Source: Prevotella sp.
Lineage (GTDB): Bacteria > Bacteroidota > Bacteroidia > Bacteroidales > Bacteroidaceae
Reading direction: 5' to 3'
Length of the DNA stretch: 50,486 bases
Assembly (NCBI GenBank): GCA_017412705.1
Contig: JAFPWS010000037.1
Location: 1 to 50,486 of the forward strand
In this document: positions 1 to 6,459 of the stretch, piece by piece
Position numbering within the stretch: the first letter of the stretch is position 1
How the letters are laid out: every line of letters begins with the position of its first letter
The notes under the pieces: generated by a model
Told to the model about the DNA's origin: nothing
The model's database searches: none
What the model saw: the letters and a program-made list of their open reading frames with translations, nothing else
Program-made: the position numbers and the translations under genes

Positions 1-35
1 ACATGATTCCCCTTCTCAATCTCTTTTCCAAAAAC

Positions 36-312
36 ATATAACCATATAACCCAATCCCCTTCAAACCACGGTGGCGAAAGGGTTTCAGGCGGGTTATATG
101 TTCTTTGGAGATATAACCCACATGTAACCCACATATAACCTGATAGGCATAAGTCAGGGGTAAGCGGATACGCTTACCTCATAGATGTCTTTGTGCATTT
201 GGGTGGGGTTATATGTAGGTTATATCTGGGTTATATGTGGTTGGGTACATATAACCCACGCTCAGCCCTTTGTCTATGGGCCTTTGAGGCCTGTTGGGTT
301 ATATGGTTACAT
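36..312. repeat. Array of ATATAACC / GGTTATAT octamers on both strands
   Basis: Perfect copies of ATATAACC are seen at 36-43, 44-51, 111-118, 133-140 and 249-256. The reverse complement GGTTATAT is seen at 92-99, 207-214, 218-225, 229-236 and 297-304. One-base variants lie at 123-129 (ATGTAACC-like) and 305-312 (GGTTACAT). Many copies are extended to ATATAACCC or followed by CAT/TGT. Such clustering in under 300 bp is not expected by chance. The copies are in both orientations and irregularly spaced, unlike CRISPR or plasmid iterons. A protein-binding array or a decayed repeat element are both possible; no known family is recognised. Confidence 0.8.
159..178. repeat. Perfect 8-bp inverted repeat with GATA loop inside the octamer array
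   Basis: GGTAAGCG at 159-166 and CGCTTACC at 171-178 form a perfect stem with a 4-nt loop. There is no adjacent T-run, so it is a weak candidate for a simple terminator. It sits near the middle of the octamer array, with copies on both sides, as expected of an operator or recombination site core. That role is inference. Confidence 0.6.
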
Positions 313-436
313 GTAGTTGCAAATTCGCATATCCACACACAGCCTAATGGACACCCCATAAACGATTGGCAGGTTGTATGGTGAGGCGTTGAGGCGTTTT
401 GCGAAAAAGTAGCGTATAATTTTTTCGTGAAAACAT

Positions 437-467
437 TTTGTCGTTTCAGTTTTATTTCCTATCTTTG
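437..467 (+). promoter_or_regulatory. Bacteroidota sigma-ABfr-type promoter for the leader RNA and repeat-protein genes
   Basis: TTTG at 437-440 is followed after 19 bp by TATCTTTG at 460-467, matching the Bacteroidota -33/-7 consensus. Transcription would start near 471-475. That places the start just before the first long-range helix strand of the structured leader (479-486). Confidence 0.8.
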
Positions 468-469
468 CA

Positions 470-749
470 GCATCGTTTGTTAGCCCCAAGAGGGTGAGCG
501 GGCGGTCTTATTGTATGAGAAAGACGTTTTCGAACGTCTGTCGTTGTGGCTCGTGAATCTCGCAAATTCCATCTCTACAGCAGACAGATGACAACCGAGA
601 CGTCTGCGTGGAGCGTATCTATATACCTTTATTTATATATAGTTCGTTCTGGCGTGGGCTAACTGGCGTTGTCTATCCTGTGTAGAGAGGGCAATGCGAG
701 AGCCTACGAGTCCAGGATGGGCAGAAGAACAGACACCTACGCCTTTTTT
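470..749 (+). ncRNA. Candidate structured RNA (leader or independent RNA) with pseudoknot and terminator-like 3' helix
   Basis: The transcript predicted from the upstream promoter contains several exact complementarities. P1 is 479-486 with 656-663 (8 bp). Within it are hairpins 522-528/533-539 (TTCG loop), 580-585/602-607 and 619-625/636-642. A second domain pairs 665-674 with 731-735 and 739-743 (CCT bulge), continued by 675-680/713-718, and is followed by six T at 744-749, like an intrinsic terminator. Its loop holds 681-688 and 695-701, exact complements of 572-579 and 558-564 inside the first domain, giving a 15-bp pseudoknot or an alternative fold. The ATG at 826 lies 77 nt beyond. I recognise no Rfam family; it could be an attenuating riboswitch-like leader or a free-standing RNA. 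Confidence 0.65.
665..749 (+). terminator. Terminator-like helix ending the leader RNA
   Basis: GGCGTTGTCT (665-674) pairs with AGACA (731-735) and ACGCC (739-743) around a 3-nt bulge, followed directly by TTTTTT. The interior loop segments can pair upstream, so formation may compete with the alternative fold described for the leader RNA. If real it would attenuate transcription into the downstream gene or define the 3' end of a small RNA. Confidence 0.55.
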
Positions 750-825: not shown

Positions 826-3800
826 ATGGATAGAATGATTAAGAACAAACACCGTGGAGCAGCAGCCGTGTGTTCCGGTATCCTCAAGTCTCACTTTACG
901 GTTGTGATGCTTTTCTTGTTGCTTGGAATCCAGGCAATGGCTCTGGACACCAGTCAAACGCGAACCATTAACGTTGCTACGGCAGGAAAATTGTCATCCT
1001 TGTTACCCCAGGCAGAGCGACAATACGTTGTCAACCTGACAATCACGGGAAAGCTGAACGGTACTGACTTCAACGTTCTAAGGGCTATGGCGACTGACGA
1101 GACACTCCAGACCCTTGATTTGTCTGGTGCTAATATCGTAAGCGGGGGTGACTCCTACTACACAAACTATGGGACAAAGTATTACACCAAGGACAACGAG
1201 TTTGGCTATTCTCTGTTCAATGGCTGCAAGAAGATACAGAAGGTTGTCCTGCCCAATTCCCTCACAACGATTGGCCAGTGTGCATTTTGGTATTGTACCA
1301 AACTGAAGACCTTGGTCATCGGTTCAAAGGTTACCACAATCAAACCAGGTATATGGGGCGGATGCAGCCAGCTTTCTGATGTCCAACTAAAAAGCAGTAC
1401 GTATTTTCATTTGCTAAATGGGATATTGTATAACAAGGACTATACTACCATTATTGCCGCTTTGCAGATTCAAAATTATGGCGACCTGACTATCCGCAGC
1501 GGGGTGAAGGAGATTCAATATAATGCTTTCGCATTCTGTAGCAAGCTGACCAGTGTTACATTCCCCTCTTCTGTGACGACCATCGGCGATACTGCTTTTG
1601 AATATACGGGCATCGCATCGGTGACCTTTACTAGTGCCATCACAAGCATTGGCAGCTTTGCTTTTAGTGGCTGTAAGAGTCTGAAGGAACTTGATTTGAC
1701 ACCACTTACTAAGGTGACCACTTTGGACTATGGAGTCTTTATGACTTCCAACGTTGAGATAGTGTATCTACCTAAAGGTCTGAAAGAGCTAAAGCAGTCA
1801 GTCTTCAGCGGCACACCATTAAAACACATCTTTGCATATACTGCAACGCCTGCAACGATGTACGACCTGTCAACAACCAGCCCGACATTTAAAAATGTGG
1901 ATGTAGAAACCTGTACCGTCCACGTTCCCCAAGGAAGAGTAAACACCTACAAGGCAGCTACAGGATGGAAGGACTTTAAGTATATAACAGATAGTCAAGA
2001 GATAACCAACAATGATAACTTGATTTATAACGAAACCCAACTCAGAACACGTCTAAAAGAAATTGCAGAAAATAATGAATCATCGCAGAGTAATCCTGTG
2101 AAGCTTACCATTGCACCTGCAGGTTTTGATATAACTTCAAGTGTCATCATTAGAAATTGTTATGTTGAGATTACAGGAGGGCGTTTAACCATTACGAAAA
2201 ATACAGCTCATTCTCCATTTATGATATTCCAGAACTCTTCCCTGTCTTTAAAGGACATCGAGATAGACTTCAACCGGTTTGACAGTTGGCCCAGAGGTTT
2301 TGAAAATGATGAAGGGGTTTTGACTATCGGGGCCGATGTTAAATTCTTAAATGCAGTTTCAGAGGGTTGGGCTACTATACCTTTCTATCATATAAGTAGT
2401 ATTACTACCATCTCCCCTACGTCATGGAATATAGCAAATGAAGTGTTTGGCGTATACTTTTCAAGTTTCCAGAAAAGTGCACAGATGCTGTTTACATCAA
2501 CGCTCCCTTATGCGCGTGTATCAGCTAATTGGGAAAGTTACAATTCAGAAGAGCCATACACACTTTTTAGAGGTTATGGATATACTCTCACAGAGACAGA
2601 CTATAATAACATAATATTTGAAGGAGTTCCGTCTAATCTTGAAGTTTTTTATGACAACAATGATAAAGCTGTGAAGCTACGGAAAAAGTATGATGGTAAT
2701 AGTGATGATTTACAAGCCTTCATTGATGCCAACGCAGGTGCAACAAGCTTTGTAGAGGTTGACCTCTCAAAGTTTGAAAACGATTTGGTGCGAGAACAGA
2801 CGCTCAATGTCAGTACAGGGGCCAGCTACCGCTTTATCAACGGAACACTTAGCCGTTCCGAGGCATTAGATGCCCCTGTGGTCTATGTCTCAAACGGTAG
2901 TAAAATGGAAGTTGGCAACGGTGCCATCATCACCAGTCAAGGACATTTGGCTGCCGACCCTCAGGCACTGTTCAAAGTGGAAGCCACAATCAAGCTGGAC
3001 AAAGGTTCTCTTTACATCACAAGTGGTAAAGTGGAAGGTTCGTGCGGTGGCAGAAATCATGGAAATGAAATGGTGACGACTATTGATGAGGAAGACCCTG
3101 CTGTAGAACTAACGTCAGACAATGACACATTCCTGATGACGGGTGGTGAAATGGGGGGCTATTTCCTCTGTACAGCCGAGGAAGCCAATGTGCGCTTTAT
3201 GGGAGGTGAGATTTACGGCCACTATTATAAAAAGAGCACTGCCGCTCAGGGCGTACCACAGACTAACCGGGCTACAGCATTCTATGACTATGCTCCTTTG
3301 ATTGATACCCGTTCTAATGTATATATAAATAAGGTGAAATCGTATTGGGGTCATCGCGGTTGGTATTTTGGAAACGAAGACCAGAATGACTTTAGTGTGT
3401 CGCTGCATGGCAACAATGTTGTATATCTGCAAAGTGGTGGAATGGATTCCTTTGGTTTCACCGTTGAAGACAAAAAGGATGGAGACCTCGTGATGGTAGG
3501 TGACAATTATACTATTACGGCAAGTGACATGGCTTGCATGAGTGTTAGGCCGTTCAGCTATTATTCTGAGAGCCTTGGACATTATGTGGAGCAGGAGTGC
3601 TACCTTGAACTGAAAGACAACAAAGTTTATCTGCGCTACAAGAAAGACGAAGTCTGCGATGCCGACGACATACAAAGATTCATCAAAGACAGGGAAGGAA
3701 CGGCTGATATGACGCTGTGCGACGAACCGACCATTGATGAAGATGTAGACGTAGATGATATACAGATTTTTATTGACGGCACTGGAAGGGAGTCCCAGCC

Positions 3801-4422
3801 AGTAATTGGCTTCTATGGCGGCACTTTCAATATCCGCCAGAATGCCGGCATGTCGTTCAAGAGCGTGACGTTTGCCAGCAAGTGCACCAACGCCATCTCG
3901 CGGCGGGCTGATGGGAATGGCGGCATCAACAATGCCGGAACGCTGTCTTTCCAAGATTGCACATTCCTTGATGGCAGCTATAGCATTGTCAACAGCAAGG
4001 ACACCTATATTGACGGAACGGTGACGGGCCTGCGCCTTACCAACAAATATGGTGGGCATGTCTATGTTACCAGTCCGCTGACGAAGGATGTTCAAGTCAG
4101 CATCGAGTCGGCTGCTGATGTGGAAGAAGGCACTCCTGTCATGCTCGGCGGAGATGGCTACACGTTGACGGAGGCCGATGCTGAACACATTGACCTCGCT
4201 CTACCCCAAGGCTATGAATGGAAGTACGACAACACGACCAACAGCATCATAGTATCTGTTGCATCCGGTATTTCACAAGCCGCAAGGGAACAGCCCACCG
4301 TCGTTGAAAGCTTCGACGTCACAGGCCACAAGGCCGACACCAACACGAAAGGCCTGAAAATCCAGCGCATGAGCGACGGGACGGTAAGGAAAACATTTAT
4401 TCATCCATTAAATAAACAATAA
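826..4422 (+). CDS. Secreted BspA-type leucine-rich-repeat protein with repeated parallel beta-helix-like modules
   Basis: 1198 residues. A basic N-terminus and hydrophobic stretch (about 24-39, ending AMA) form a signal peptide; M4 is an alternative start. Residues about 120-370 are Treponema/BspA-type LRR_5 repeats (recurring AFxxCxxLxxVxFPxSVTTIG). The rest reads as a Gly/Asn/Thr-rich right-handed beta-helix with recurring modules. Each module begins near DDLQxFI, passes through VDLSxF and RFINGTL, and closes with GYTLTxxD plus a YDN segment. A Cys/Asp-rich stretch has two DDIQxFI copies. The tail (GLKIQRMSDGTVRK) resembles C-terminal tails common on Bacteroidales secreted proteins. It is followed 3 bp later by a paralogous gene. 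Adhesin/surface function is inferred; BspA relatives bind host proteins or support co-aggregation. A small inverted repeat (813-827) overlaps the start codon. Confidence 0.85.
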   Translation: MDRMIKNKHRGAAAVCSGILKSHFTVVMLFLLLGIQAMALDTSQTRTINVATAGKLSSLLPQAERQYVVNLTITGKLNGTDFNVLRAMATDETLQTLDLSGANIVSGGDSYYTNYGTKYYTKDNEFGYSLFNGCKKIQKVVLPNSLTTIGQCAFWYCTKLKTLVIGSKVTTIKPGIWGGCSQLSDVQLKSSTYFHLLNGILYNKDYTTIIAALQIQNYGDLTIRSGVKEIQYNAFAFCSKLTSVTFPSSVTTIGDTAFEYTGIASVTFTSAITSIGSFAFSGCKSLKELDLTPLTKVTTLDYGVFMTSNVEIVYLPKGLKELKQSVFSGTPLKHIFAYTATPATMYDLSTTSPTFKNVDVETCTVHVPQGRVNTYKAATGWKDFKYITDSQEITNNDNLIYNETQLRTRLKEIAENNESSQSNPVKLTIAPAGFDITSSVIIRNCYVEITGGRLTITKNTAHSPFMIFQNSSLSLKDIEIDFNRFDSWPRGFENDEGVLTIGADVKFLNAVSEGWATIPFYHISSITTISPTSWNIANEVFGVYFSSFQKSAQMLFTSTLPYARVSANWESYNSEEPYTLFRGYGYTLTETDYNNIIFEGVPSNLEVFYDNNDKAVKLRKKYDGNSDDLQAFIDANAGATSFVEVDLSKFENDLVREQTLNVSTGASYRFINGTLSRSEALDAPVVYVSNGSKMEVGNGAIITSQGHLAADPQALFKVEATIKLDKGSLYITSGKVEGSCGGRNHGNEMVTTIDEEDPAVELTSDNDTFLMTGGEMGGYFLCTAEEANVRFMGGEIYGHYYKKSTAAQGVPQTNRATAFYDYAPLIDTRSNVYINKVKSYWGHRGWYFGNEDQNDFSVSLHGNNVVYLQSGGMDSFGFTVEDKKDGDLVMVGDNYTITASDMACMSVRPFSYYSESLGHYVEQECYLELKDNKVYLRYKKDEVCDADDIQRFIKDREGTADMTLCDEPTIDEDVDVDDIQIFIDGTGRESQPVIGFYGGTFNIRQNAGMSFKSVTFASKCTNAISRRADGNGGINNAGTLSFQDCTFLDGSYSIVNSKDTYIDGTVTGLRLTNKYGGHVYVTSPLTKDVQVSIESAADVEEGTPVMLGGDGYTLTEADAEHIDLALPQGYEWKYDNTTNSIIVSVASGISQAAREQPTVVESFDVTGHKADTNTKGLKIQRMSDGTVRKTFIHPLNKQ

Positions 4423-4425
4423 ACA

Positions 4426-6459
4426 ATGAGAAAGTTAGATTTTATGTTTAAGTTGCGATTGGCGATTTTGTTAGGAATGCTGGCATGCTTTGGCAGCGTT
4501 CAAGCGCAGGACGACCTGCAAGAGTACGTCAACAAGGTTTCTGCACAGAATGCTGGACGGCACCAGGCACCGAACAACATTATTGATGTTGACCTCTCTC
4601 AGTTTTCGGCTACGAAACGTAAGACAACCCTTGATGTGGCCAATGGCAACAACTACAGGTTTATCAACGGAACGCTGACTCGTGACGCCAGTCTCGACGG
4701 CCCCATCCTGCATGTGGGTGGTGGCTGCTATGTGGAGATAGGTAACGGAGCGACCATTTCAGCAGAAGAGTCAAGCAGCAACCGTGAGGCAATAATCCAA
4801 GACGGTGCTGAACTGCAATTGCTGAAAGGCGGTGCCATCAGGGGTAAGAAGGGCTGTACTTCGGTGCTGATGACAACAGCCAGCGACAACTTCACCATGC
4901 AGTATGGCACATTGTATGGCACATTGGTTTGTGAAGCCTCTGATGCAACCATTAACTTTAACGGAGGTGAGCTTGAGTGGAGCAACATTTCAGGTAATGA
5001 TTTCTATGACACCTTTAAGTCGGCAGCTGACATCAACGTCAATAGCATGCCCTTTAACGACGTTATCAGGGTTGAACTGACAGGCAAGAACAATGTCATT
5101 AATATGGACAGCGATTTTTGCCCACTATTCTATGTAAAAGCACCCGCCAAGAAAAGTGGTGATGTGCTTGTCAAAGTACTGCACTTTGGAACCTATTGGA
5201 GTCTGGATGATGTAAAGAAATATACCACATGGCAAGGGGACCAGAAATACGGCACTTATGCTGACAGCAAAACCAATACTGTCAAGCTGAGTTATGACGA
5301 CCTGCAGAGATTCTTTGACGACCCTGATGACAAGGACGAGCACTGTGGCTGTAGCGACGAAGACCCATATCGAGTAGATATTCCTTGTGACGGCCTTACG
5401 ATGAAGAAGGACTTGGACGTTCCCGATGATGATTTATACTGGGCCATCAATGGCCGTCCTGAGGGACAGGAGGATGAGTACGACTGTGAGGGTCAGGTAG
5501 ACGAAGGTGAGAATGACGTGTACATTCGTCCCAAAGCCAAGGTTAGGTGGCGTTGGCTGCGCTGGCGCGGCTGCGGCTGTCAGGGCAAGCACATCTGGGT
5601 CTACGGCACGCTGCGTATCTACAGGGTATGGTACTATTACTACTGGCGCTTTATTCACGTGATGCCTGGTGGTAAGGTAATCATTGAGGATTTGAACGGC
5701 GACTGCGACGAGACGGTGTTCCACGTTGAAGGCGGTGAGGTGGACTATGGCGGCGACAACAGCCATTGTTCCGGCGGCAAGTATGGCTGGTACTGTACTG
5801 GCGGTGTTATTTACATCCGTGGCGGATGGTTGAGCGGCGGAACCTGTGGTGGTTGGACAGGCCCGAAAGGTAAGAGCTACCACTACGACGGCACGGTGCA
5901 CGGCGGTATCCATAACTATGGCTGGCACTATTTCTATGGTGGCACCTGCTCGGGCGGTGGTTCTTATACCATCTATAACTATAAGGGCGGCCACTTCTAC
6001 TATTATAAAGGCACCTGCACGGATGGTGGCAAGATATGGAACGAGGGCGACCTCTACATAGACGGTGGCGGTGCAATCAGCTGCGGCGACATCTACTGCA
6101 TCAAGGGTGGCTGTATCTATATTCTGAAGAAGCTGACCTTCACGCTGCGCCTGATAATTACGGAAGAGAACATTGTTCCCGGTGCAACAATTGTTGTGGG
6201 TGGCGATGGCTACACGCTGACACAGGACGATATTGACAGGATACAGATTGACTTGCCTGATGGTTACGAGTGGAAGTACGACGGTGCTTGTGGTTGTATA
6301 TCAATCATCAAGACCACAGGCATTTCAAATGCCGTAACTAATGCCCCAGCCGTCATGCAGTCATACGATACTACAGGTCGCCAAGTGGGCGAAGGCAGCA
6401 AGGGCATCAACATCCAGCGCATGAGCGACGGAACGGTTCGTAAGGTTACTGCAAAATAA
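4426..6459 (+). CDS. Secreted repeat protein with Trp/Tyr/Gly/Cys-rich core, paralogue of the preceding gene
   Basis: 677 residues with a signal peptide (hydrophobic 11-21, SVQAQ cleavage region near 28). Residues 52-115 repeat the VDLSxF, RFINGTL, EIGNGA module of the upstream protein. Residues 590-628 repeat its GYTLTxxD/EWKYD module, and the last 15 residues are almost identical in type (INIQRMSDGTVRK). Between lies an extraordinary segment (about 373-565): WRWLRWRGCGC, a VWYYYYW cluster at 401-407, then many GG turns with His, Tyr and more than a dozen Cys. This reads as a beta-helix with aromatic ladders and disulfides or metal sites. It is co-transcribed with the previous gene (3-bp gap) and ends before a terminator hairpin. 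No enzymatic motif is recognised; the function is unknown. Confidence 0.8.
   Translation: MRKLDFMFKLRLAILLGMLACFGSVQAQDDLQEYVNKVSAQNAGRHQAPNNIIDVDLSQFSATKRKTTLDVANGNNYRFINGTLTRDASLDGPILHVGGGCYVEIGNGATISAEESSSNREAIIQDGAELQLLKGGAIRGKKGCTSVLMTTASDNFTMQYGTLYGTLVCEASDATINFNGGELEWSNISGNDFYDTFKSAADINVNSMPFNDVIRVELTGKNNVINMDSDFCPLFYVKAPAKKSGDVLVKVLHFGTYWSLDDVKKYTTWQGDQKYGTYADSKTNTVKLSYDDLQRFFDDPDDKDEHCGCSDEDPYRVDIPCDGLTMKKDLDVPDDDLYWAINGRPEGQEDEYDCEGQVDEGENDVYIRPKAKVRWRWLRWRGCGCQGKHIWVYGTLRIYRVWYYYYWRFIHVMPGGKVIIEDLNGDCDETVFHVEGGEVDYGGDNSHCSGGKYGWYCTGGVIYIRGGWLSGGTCGGWTGPKGKSYHYDGTVHGGIHNYGWHYFYGGTCSGGGSYTIYNYKGGHFYYYKGTCTDGGKIWNEGDLYIDGGGAISCGDIYCIKGGCIYILKKLTFTLRLIITEENIVPGATIVVGGDGYTLTQDDIDRIQIDLPDGYEWKYDGACGCISIIKTTGISNAVTNAPAVMQSYDTTGRQVGEGSKGINIQRMSDGTVRKVTAK

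Follow-up and report, generated by a model that had tools for sequence, protein, structure and literature searches.

Positions 470-749 of the window (the whole 50,486-nt stretch of Prevotella sp. DNA analyzed here) hold a conserved, pseudoknotted RNA that we take, with a probability of about 0.6, to be a cis-acting leader governing the gene directly behind it through intrinsic transcription termination, presumably by attenuation as judged from sequence. The order of its parts—promoter, sensor-like fold, terminator, short untranslated region (UTR), gene—suggests an attenuating leader, and reading of the downstream gene probably depends on the RNA. We regard it as a new family of structured cis-regulatory leader of unusual design. 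Its parts and surroundings are the following, where z scores come from the permutation test described below:

437..467, + strand: promoter-like boxes, TTTG (437-440) and TATCTTTG (460-467)
470..749, + strand: aligned extent of the conserved RNA (276 positions in model R1)
479..663, + strand: P1, 479-486 GUUAGCCC with 656-663 GGGCUAAC, a possible antiterminator
523..538, + strand: P2a, local hairpin with a UUCG loop
537..588, + strand: P2, 537-542/583-588 and 543-548/576-581, loop 549-575
549..711, + strand: PKa, loop-loop helix 549-554/706-711, z -17.7 near and -32.0 far
559..700, + strand: PKmid, loop-loop helix 559-564/695-700, z -6.7 near and -11.1 far (partly circular, as this helix served as the test anchor)
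572..688, + strand: PKc, loop-loop helix 572-579/681-688, z -10.3 near and -24.3 far
590..673, + strand: P6, 590-595/668-673, crossing P5, z -7.3 far
610..650, + strand: P3, variable A+T hairpin, 610-615/645-650 and 619-625/636-642
651..749, + strand: P5, terminator 651-658/736-743 followed by T6 (744-749), enclosing P4
674..719, + strand: P4, 674-680/713-719 within the terminator hairpin, its loop containing the 3' halves of the loop-loop helices
733..809, + strand: UTR pairing, 733-737 ACACC with 798-802 GGUGU in a UTR hairpin closed by 787-789/807-809
826..4422, + strand: gene for a BspA-type leucine-rich repeat protein, 1198 aa (LRR_5, E 1.7e-38; hydrophobic N-terminus by eye)
4426..6459, + strand: second gene, coding for 677 aa without a Pfam match; by eye the product looks secreted

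How widespread is this RNA? A covariance model, R1, built on an alignment (A1) of a near set of 30 copies, finds the RNA in 188 of 299 genomes from the same genus and, across the order, in 29 of 295 sampled ones (22 of 184 genera), the own genome being counted in both, and for a second model, R2 (57 sequences), the own genome is the sole match among 345 phylum-sampled genomes under strict filters; since these scans scored six candidates per genome under stricter filters, the copy numbers they give, zeros included, are lower bounds. A deeper scan of 16 genomes, in which 134 candidates were scored and matches at E <= 0.001 were counted, weak and partial ones included, gave 0 to 14 RNA matches each: two in the own genome, 14, 8, 8, 7, 9, 7, 4, 4 and 2 in nine other carriers, and, for six same-genus genomes without an R1 match, none in five and one weak match in the sixth. 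Dozens of long matches of ~66-91% identity, with more than one in some genomes, also came from a DNA search of 200 same-genus genomes; that search listed E-values up to 10, which renders its tally of 200/200 meaningless, and low E-values were used. A pattern scan of named genomes found at least 114 stretches, and R1 confirms 77 of 80 among the matches listed. These confirmed cases, again among the matches listed, come from Prevotella, Alloprevotella, Bacteroides clarus, B. bouchesdurhonensis, Parabacteroides distasonis An897 and P. faecis, as well as from Barnesiella, Mediterranea, Muribaculaceae, Paludibacteraceae and Salinivirgaceae records; one Clostridia-labelled record that also matched R1 is likely misbinned. 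Of 81 model matches 77 were used further (left out were L196, L206, L219 and an opposite-strand match in L247), and five pattern-scan loci (L214, L227, L243, L305, L307) had no model match. Searches of phage, plasmid and E. coli collections gave no match to the window RNA; contigs of a viral collection gave four hits, two of them confirmed (L304 and L306), and in L306 the first ORF after the RNA resembles an EF-Tu-type GTP-binding protein. The own genome's second copy, at L110:4001-5152 (G000:C32), is divergent and lies before a UpxY-like NusG paralogue. At L119:1884-4234, two similar copies (similarity ratio 0.96) and a weak 3' fragment share 2.4 kb of one contig.

Rfam 15, run over the whole window at gathering scores, places no family on 470-749, its matches lying elsewhere (SRP RNA, a cobalamin riboswitch and a tRNA). 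The region 400-850, searched at E up to 10, yields two chance-level matches only, and six distant loci of the RNA yield no match. The cobalamin riboswitch (RF00174, 82.8 bits) runs from 16734 to 16540 on the minus strand, and by eye the minus-strand ORFs beyond it resemble genes for a TonB-type receptor and for cobalamin synthesis. The original prediction of a large, pseudoknotted, riboswitch-like RNA outside any listed family is supported: Rfam is blank here, and many homologues with compensatory changes were found. No earlier description turned up in searches of open-access full text. Passages of PMC8040213 and PMC10994844 contain no such RNA; the former reports 3161 candidate structured RNAs from human microbiomes, with Prevotella-only candidates near uvrC, and these may include an earlier, unnamed entry for our RNA.

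Compensatory changes support the structural model. In the near set, 97.2% of cells in the named helices are paired, and 16 of 56 pairs (153 cells) show changes on both sides; shuffling gives 11.8 pairs with 45 cells, and sliding the partners gives 18-27 cells; in a far set of 48 copies, 85.0% are paired, and 28 of 37 pairs (229 cells) have changed on both sides. For two-sided pairs, cells and covariation score, none of 500 shuffles reached the observed value, near or far; the count of further pair types was reached by 46 of 500 near and 129 of 500 far shuffles. In the far set P2 and PKa vary in length, follow no single register in the alignment and are 55-68% paired; they are covered by a test that needs no alignment. 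In this test, the duplex energy of each copy's own strands was compared with that of permuted partners (5000 permutations; 37 near or 75 far copies), with the segments picked after the alignments had been seen; it used 112 of 138 copies, two being not anchored and 24 redundant, and one weak 3' fragment, L119:2811-3039, is not among the 138. Two control segment pairs gave z scores of 0.8, 0.1, -1.1 and -1.5. A GACGU/ACGUC helix around P2 was tried and rejected (z 0.4 near, -1.3 far). The RNA contains conserved segments, and by eye identical pairing types recur in differing backgrounds.

At the heart of the fold, the 27-nt loop of P2 and the 32-nt loop of P4 are joined in three covarying blocks that amount to 20 bp in the window. 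All complementary words named in the original prediction are present in the window sequence, and its two loop-to-loop matches, 559-564/695-700 and 572-579/681-688, are backed by comparison; the matches are real, and the total of 15 bp given for them fell short of the three blocks. Within the near set, PKa has changed on both sides in six of six pairs, with up to four pair types per position, and PKc in four of four counted pairs. The end of PKc at 576-579 also pairs in P2, so the ends of the two helices compete in the window, an overlap hardly seen by eye in distant copies. P2 itself is 99.2% paired across the 30 near copies with no two-sided change, and its cognate strands outperform permuted ones (z -4.5 near, -11.9 far). 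P4 is 98.6% paired in the near set and 95.6% in the far set, where seven of eight pairs have changed on both sides (cognate versus permuted: z -5.3 near, -10.6 far). Because the loops of P2 and P4 pair with each other while P4 sits inside P5, the crossing of helices claimed from the outset is supported; the crossing helices may coexist or exclude each other. P6 is 95.7% paired in the 48 far copies, with three pairs changed on both sides, and is almost invariant in the near set, giving no covariation signal there. P3 shows two-sided changes in 5 of 13 near-set pairs, and its AT hairpin at 619-625/636-642, part of the original prediction, is backed by comparison as well. The predicted local hairpin at 523-528/533-538 (P2a) is 99.4% paired and varies so little that covariation neither backs nor refutes it. 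A hairpin proposed at 580-607 is not supported: 79% of its cells are paired, and among its six pairs one is broken in 14 and another in 20 of the 30 near copies. Five pairings are additions of the present analysis: 549-554/706-711, P2 (537-548/576-588), P4 (674-680/713-719), P6 (590-595/668-673) and the UTR pairing (733-737/798-802). The folding energy of 476-749 lies below that of all 200 shuffles (z -4.62), and its reverse complement gives z -3.17, with one of 200 shuffles as good.

The predicted terminator P5 is 100% paired in the near set, where one pair varies on one side, and 97.9% paired in the 48 far copies, where five of eight pairs have changed on both sides (cognate versus permuted: z -2.3 near, -7.2 far). 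A terminal helix had originally been drawn at 665-674/731-743; it is 95-99% paired in the near set and has one two-sided change there, but 651-658/736-743, with which it shares 739-743, is better backed, and the original helix may be an alternative to it. Of 207 copies, 188 finish with a U-run (at least 6 T in 9 nt), and 19 lack one by the rule used. A simple terminator scan of 1-1200 returned none, the loop of P5 being longer than the scan allows. The expectation of a terminator-like 3' end ahead of a gene for a secreted repeat protein agrees with the BspA-type leucine-rich repeat protein encoded downstream. P1, likewise predicted, overlaps P5 at three bases, 656-658. It is 92% paired in the 30 near copies, where no pair has changed on both sides; cognate strands score z -5.9 far and -1.7 near, and by eye the helix is not visible in every distant copy. 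With P5 enforced, the RNA folds at -98.0 kcal/mol and also forms P2, P3, P4 and a 5' hairpin; with P1 enforced it folds at -88.1 kcal/mol, ~10 worse, pseudoknots being ignored. As folding omits pseudoknots, the loop-loop helix goes uncredited in these energies.

The surroundings of the RNA fit a leader. The boxes at 437-440 and 460-467 resemble the Bacteroidetes -33/-7 consensus. Of 204 copies, 167 have TAnnTTTG between -55 and +14 relative to the start of the RNA, most commonly beginning at -10, as opposed to 217 of 4080 shuffled segments, and these 167 boxes point to a leader with its own promoter at the 5' end. A predicted terminator stem with its U-run would then lie between promoter and gene. 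Among the 114 loci where the RNA is flanked by 900 nt on each side, 94 have a same-strand ORF, 100 aa or longer, that starts 20-150 nt after it, and 20 lack one; a divergent ORF precedes the RNA in nine of the 114, compared to four of 114 in the reverse control. No conserved leader peptide was seen in the near set: an ATG at 515 is kept in 26 of 30 near copies, with lengths of 12-77 aa. Upstream of the promoter, window positions 25-323 are dense with direct and inverted repeats of GGGTTATATG / CATATAACCC, for example 111-140 with 207-236 (90% complementary).

What lies behind the promoter and RNA varies, with a lean toward proteins with secretion- or membrane-type N-termini. By a crude hydropathy rule, a signal-peptide- or membrane-like N-terminus is found in 112 of 146 first ORFs of at least 150 aa versus 259 of 663 other ORFs, the background being non-overlapping ORFs of the longer loci (overlapping six-frame ORFs gave 283 of 845). 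Pfam was run on 172 of the 192 first ORFs that reach 80 aa, giving 75 families in 119 of them and 41 in the other 53: LRR_5 in 13 of 119 and 6 of 53, LytTR in 4 and 2, PEGA in 3 and 2, and the rest scattered. Such diversity points to no particular ligand. A type III toxin-antitoxin system, which would call for a single toxin family downstream, was considered and rejected, since even the commonest family, LRR_5, reaches 13 of 119 and 6 of 53 first ORFs. NCBIfam put one of eight downstream proteins over its cut-off, that of L007, in the Cbp1 collagen-binding adhesin family (228.6 bits versus 90). In the window, the genes at 826..4422 and 4426..6459 probably form one operon. A recurrent first gene with the motif ER(A/V)FAYELY(F/H)QW follows the RNA in L010, L013, L026, L029 and L118; the L013 protein has no NCBIfam match, and a secreted-looking gene comes next in L010, L013 and L026. 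In L121, L122 and L230 the RNA precedes short Cys-rich proteins, of which that of L122, at 43 bits (cut-off 50), is similar to the Cys-Xaa-Xaa-Xaa radical SAM target family.

Beyond the RNA itself, a small UTR hairpin has a loop that forms base pairs with nucleotides at the 5' edge of the 3' terminator arm. Cognate strands again outperform permuted ones (z -5.2 near, -7.5 far): a helix score of at least 15 is reached by 110 of 207 copies with their own UTR and by 39 of 207 with another copy's, and a helix length of at least 6 by 156 of 207 cognate versus 103 of 207 non-cognate pairs. This seed (score at least 14) has its median start 46 nt past the start of the U-run and its median end 24 nt before the start codon. 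By eye, many near copies have a GCC...GGC hairpin in the UTR, and pairs are apparent as CUCC/GGAG in L027, CCGCUC/GAGCGG in L105 and GAUUCCC/GGGAAUC in L099; in some copies, including L104, L116 and the own genome's second copy, no partner was seen by eye.

Taken together, a switch can be envisaged. By default, the 5' hairpin, P2, P4 and P5 would form, transcription would stop near 749 and an RNA of ~275 nt would be freed. A signal—a small molecule, a protein or an RNA—favoring P1, a helix whose 3' strand would use up three bases on the 5' side of the terminator stem, might then let polymerase read on. Within the longer, read-through transcript, the 3' side of the terminator could pair with the UTR hairpin ~24 nt before the start, which would hold the terminator hairpin open and may also set translation.

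Alternatively, the RNA could be a stand-alone small RNA acting in trans on the adjacent UTR or on others, with the gene served by its own promoter or by leak-through. The terminator-like end would suit such a molecule, as would a 3' side that covaries with a short UTR loop in the fashion of an antisense seed. A strict UTR-motif pattern gave 32 matches in 15 genomes (27 distinct places) versus 14 in a backward control, two of them seen after a known copy, in a search that was too strict and too weakly controlled. We nevertheless consider a trans-acting role unlikely: the seed covaries with the adjacent UTR instead of staying constant across copies, and placement ahead of a same-strand gene is the rule. 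The working fold of a leader might also be a single long rod in which the P2 and P4 hairpins are minor. The unconstrained fold is such a rod (-105.7 kcal/mol), as is the RNAalifold consensus of the 30 sequences, and both exclude P2 and P4. Yet the outer arm, which excludes these hairpins, shows no covariation in the near copies (z 1.2) and little in the far ones (z -3.1), covariation among the far copies backs P2 and P4, and the inner part of the rod, P6, whose support comes from the far set, fits both folds; we rate the rod as rather improbable.

Two further explanations concern the reader and the mobility of the RNA. A specialized NusG paralogue (an antiterminator of the UpxY/LoaP type) could read the leader in the manner of EAR or put RNAs. 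The own genome's second copy precedes a gene that resembles UpxY at 75.7 bits, short of the cut-off of 100, and more than one NusG match occurs in 6 of 10 carriers versus one of six genomes with no or one weak copy, a small sample. Set against this, NusG is matched a single time in four of the ten carriers (14, 8, 4 and 7 copies), so no such paralogue is needed, and single-sequence phmmer, an insensitive method, found no second relative of the UpxY-like protein over the ORFs examined; dependence on NusG paralogues therefore strikes us as very unlikely. That the RNA belongs to a module of retron, intron or cassette type, which would move or recombine and carry its own RNA before varied cargo, is, in our view, highly improbable. 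The shared pairing types in different backgrounds, the multiple copies per genome and the variety of downstream genes would be in line with it; against it speak the 25 of 75 and 25 of 41 Pfam families listed for the first ORFs, which include no reverse transcriptase or recombinase, and the collection searches, blank for plasmids and phages and with two of the four viral-contig hits confirmed. Within the preferred reading of a cis-acting terminator leader, a more specific idea, which we put forward tentatively and with the odds against it, is a new Bacteroidales riboswitch-like class in which one shared physiological signal would control a surface-protein regulon and copy-specific pairs, namely the ~20-bp loop-loop helix and the UTR seed, would insulate the copies.

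Gene control in gut Bacteroidales is, to our knowledge, little mapped at the RNA level, and a multicopy leader before BspA-type and other secreted-looking proteins would define a directly testable regulon. A loop-loop helix this long, lying partly within the terminator hairpin, would be an unusual design for a switch. If a ligand exists, it would imply a new class; if a protein reads the RNA, a new antitermination factor.

Which known systems come closest? The c-di-GMP riboswitches (GEMM-I/II) also occur in many copies per genome, stand before varied genes biased toward surface proteins and regulators, and are often linked to terminators; compared to these, the window RNA is larger, has a long loop-loop helix and a UTR partner, and matches no Rfam family. 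In the HMP-PP (thiS) riboswitch (PMC6478431), a sensor-like part likewise sits inside a terminator hairpin. From that class the window RNA departs by its lack of an Rfam match and by size and gene context. The leaders associated with UpxY/LoaP, EAR and put are structured and set the termination of surface-related operons, whereas the present RNA has a predicted intrinsic terminator built in, and 4 of 10 carriers have a single NusG match. The cobalamin riboswitch at 16734-16540 of the same window provides a neighboring case of a large pseudoknotted leader, unlike ours in being matched by RF00174.
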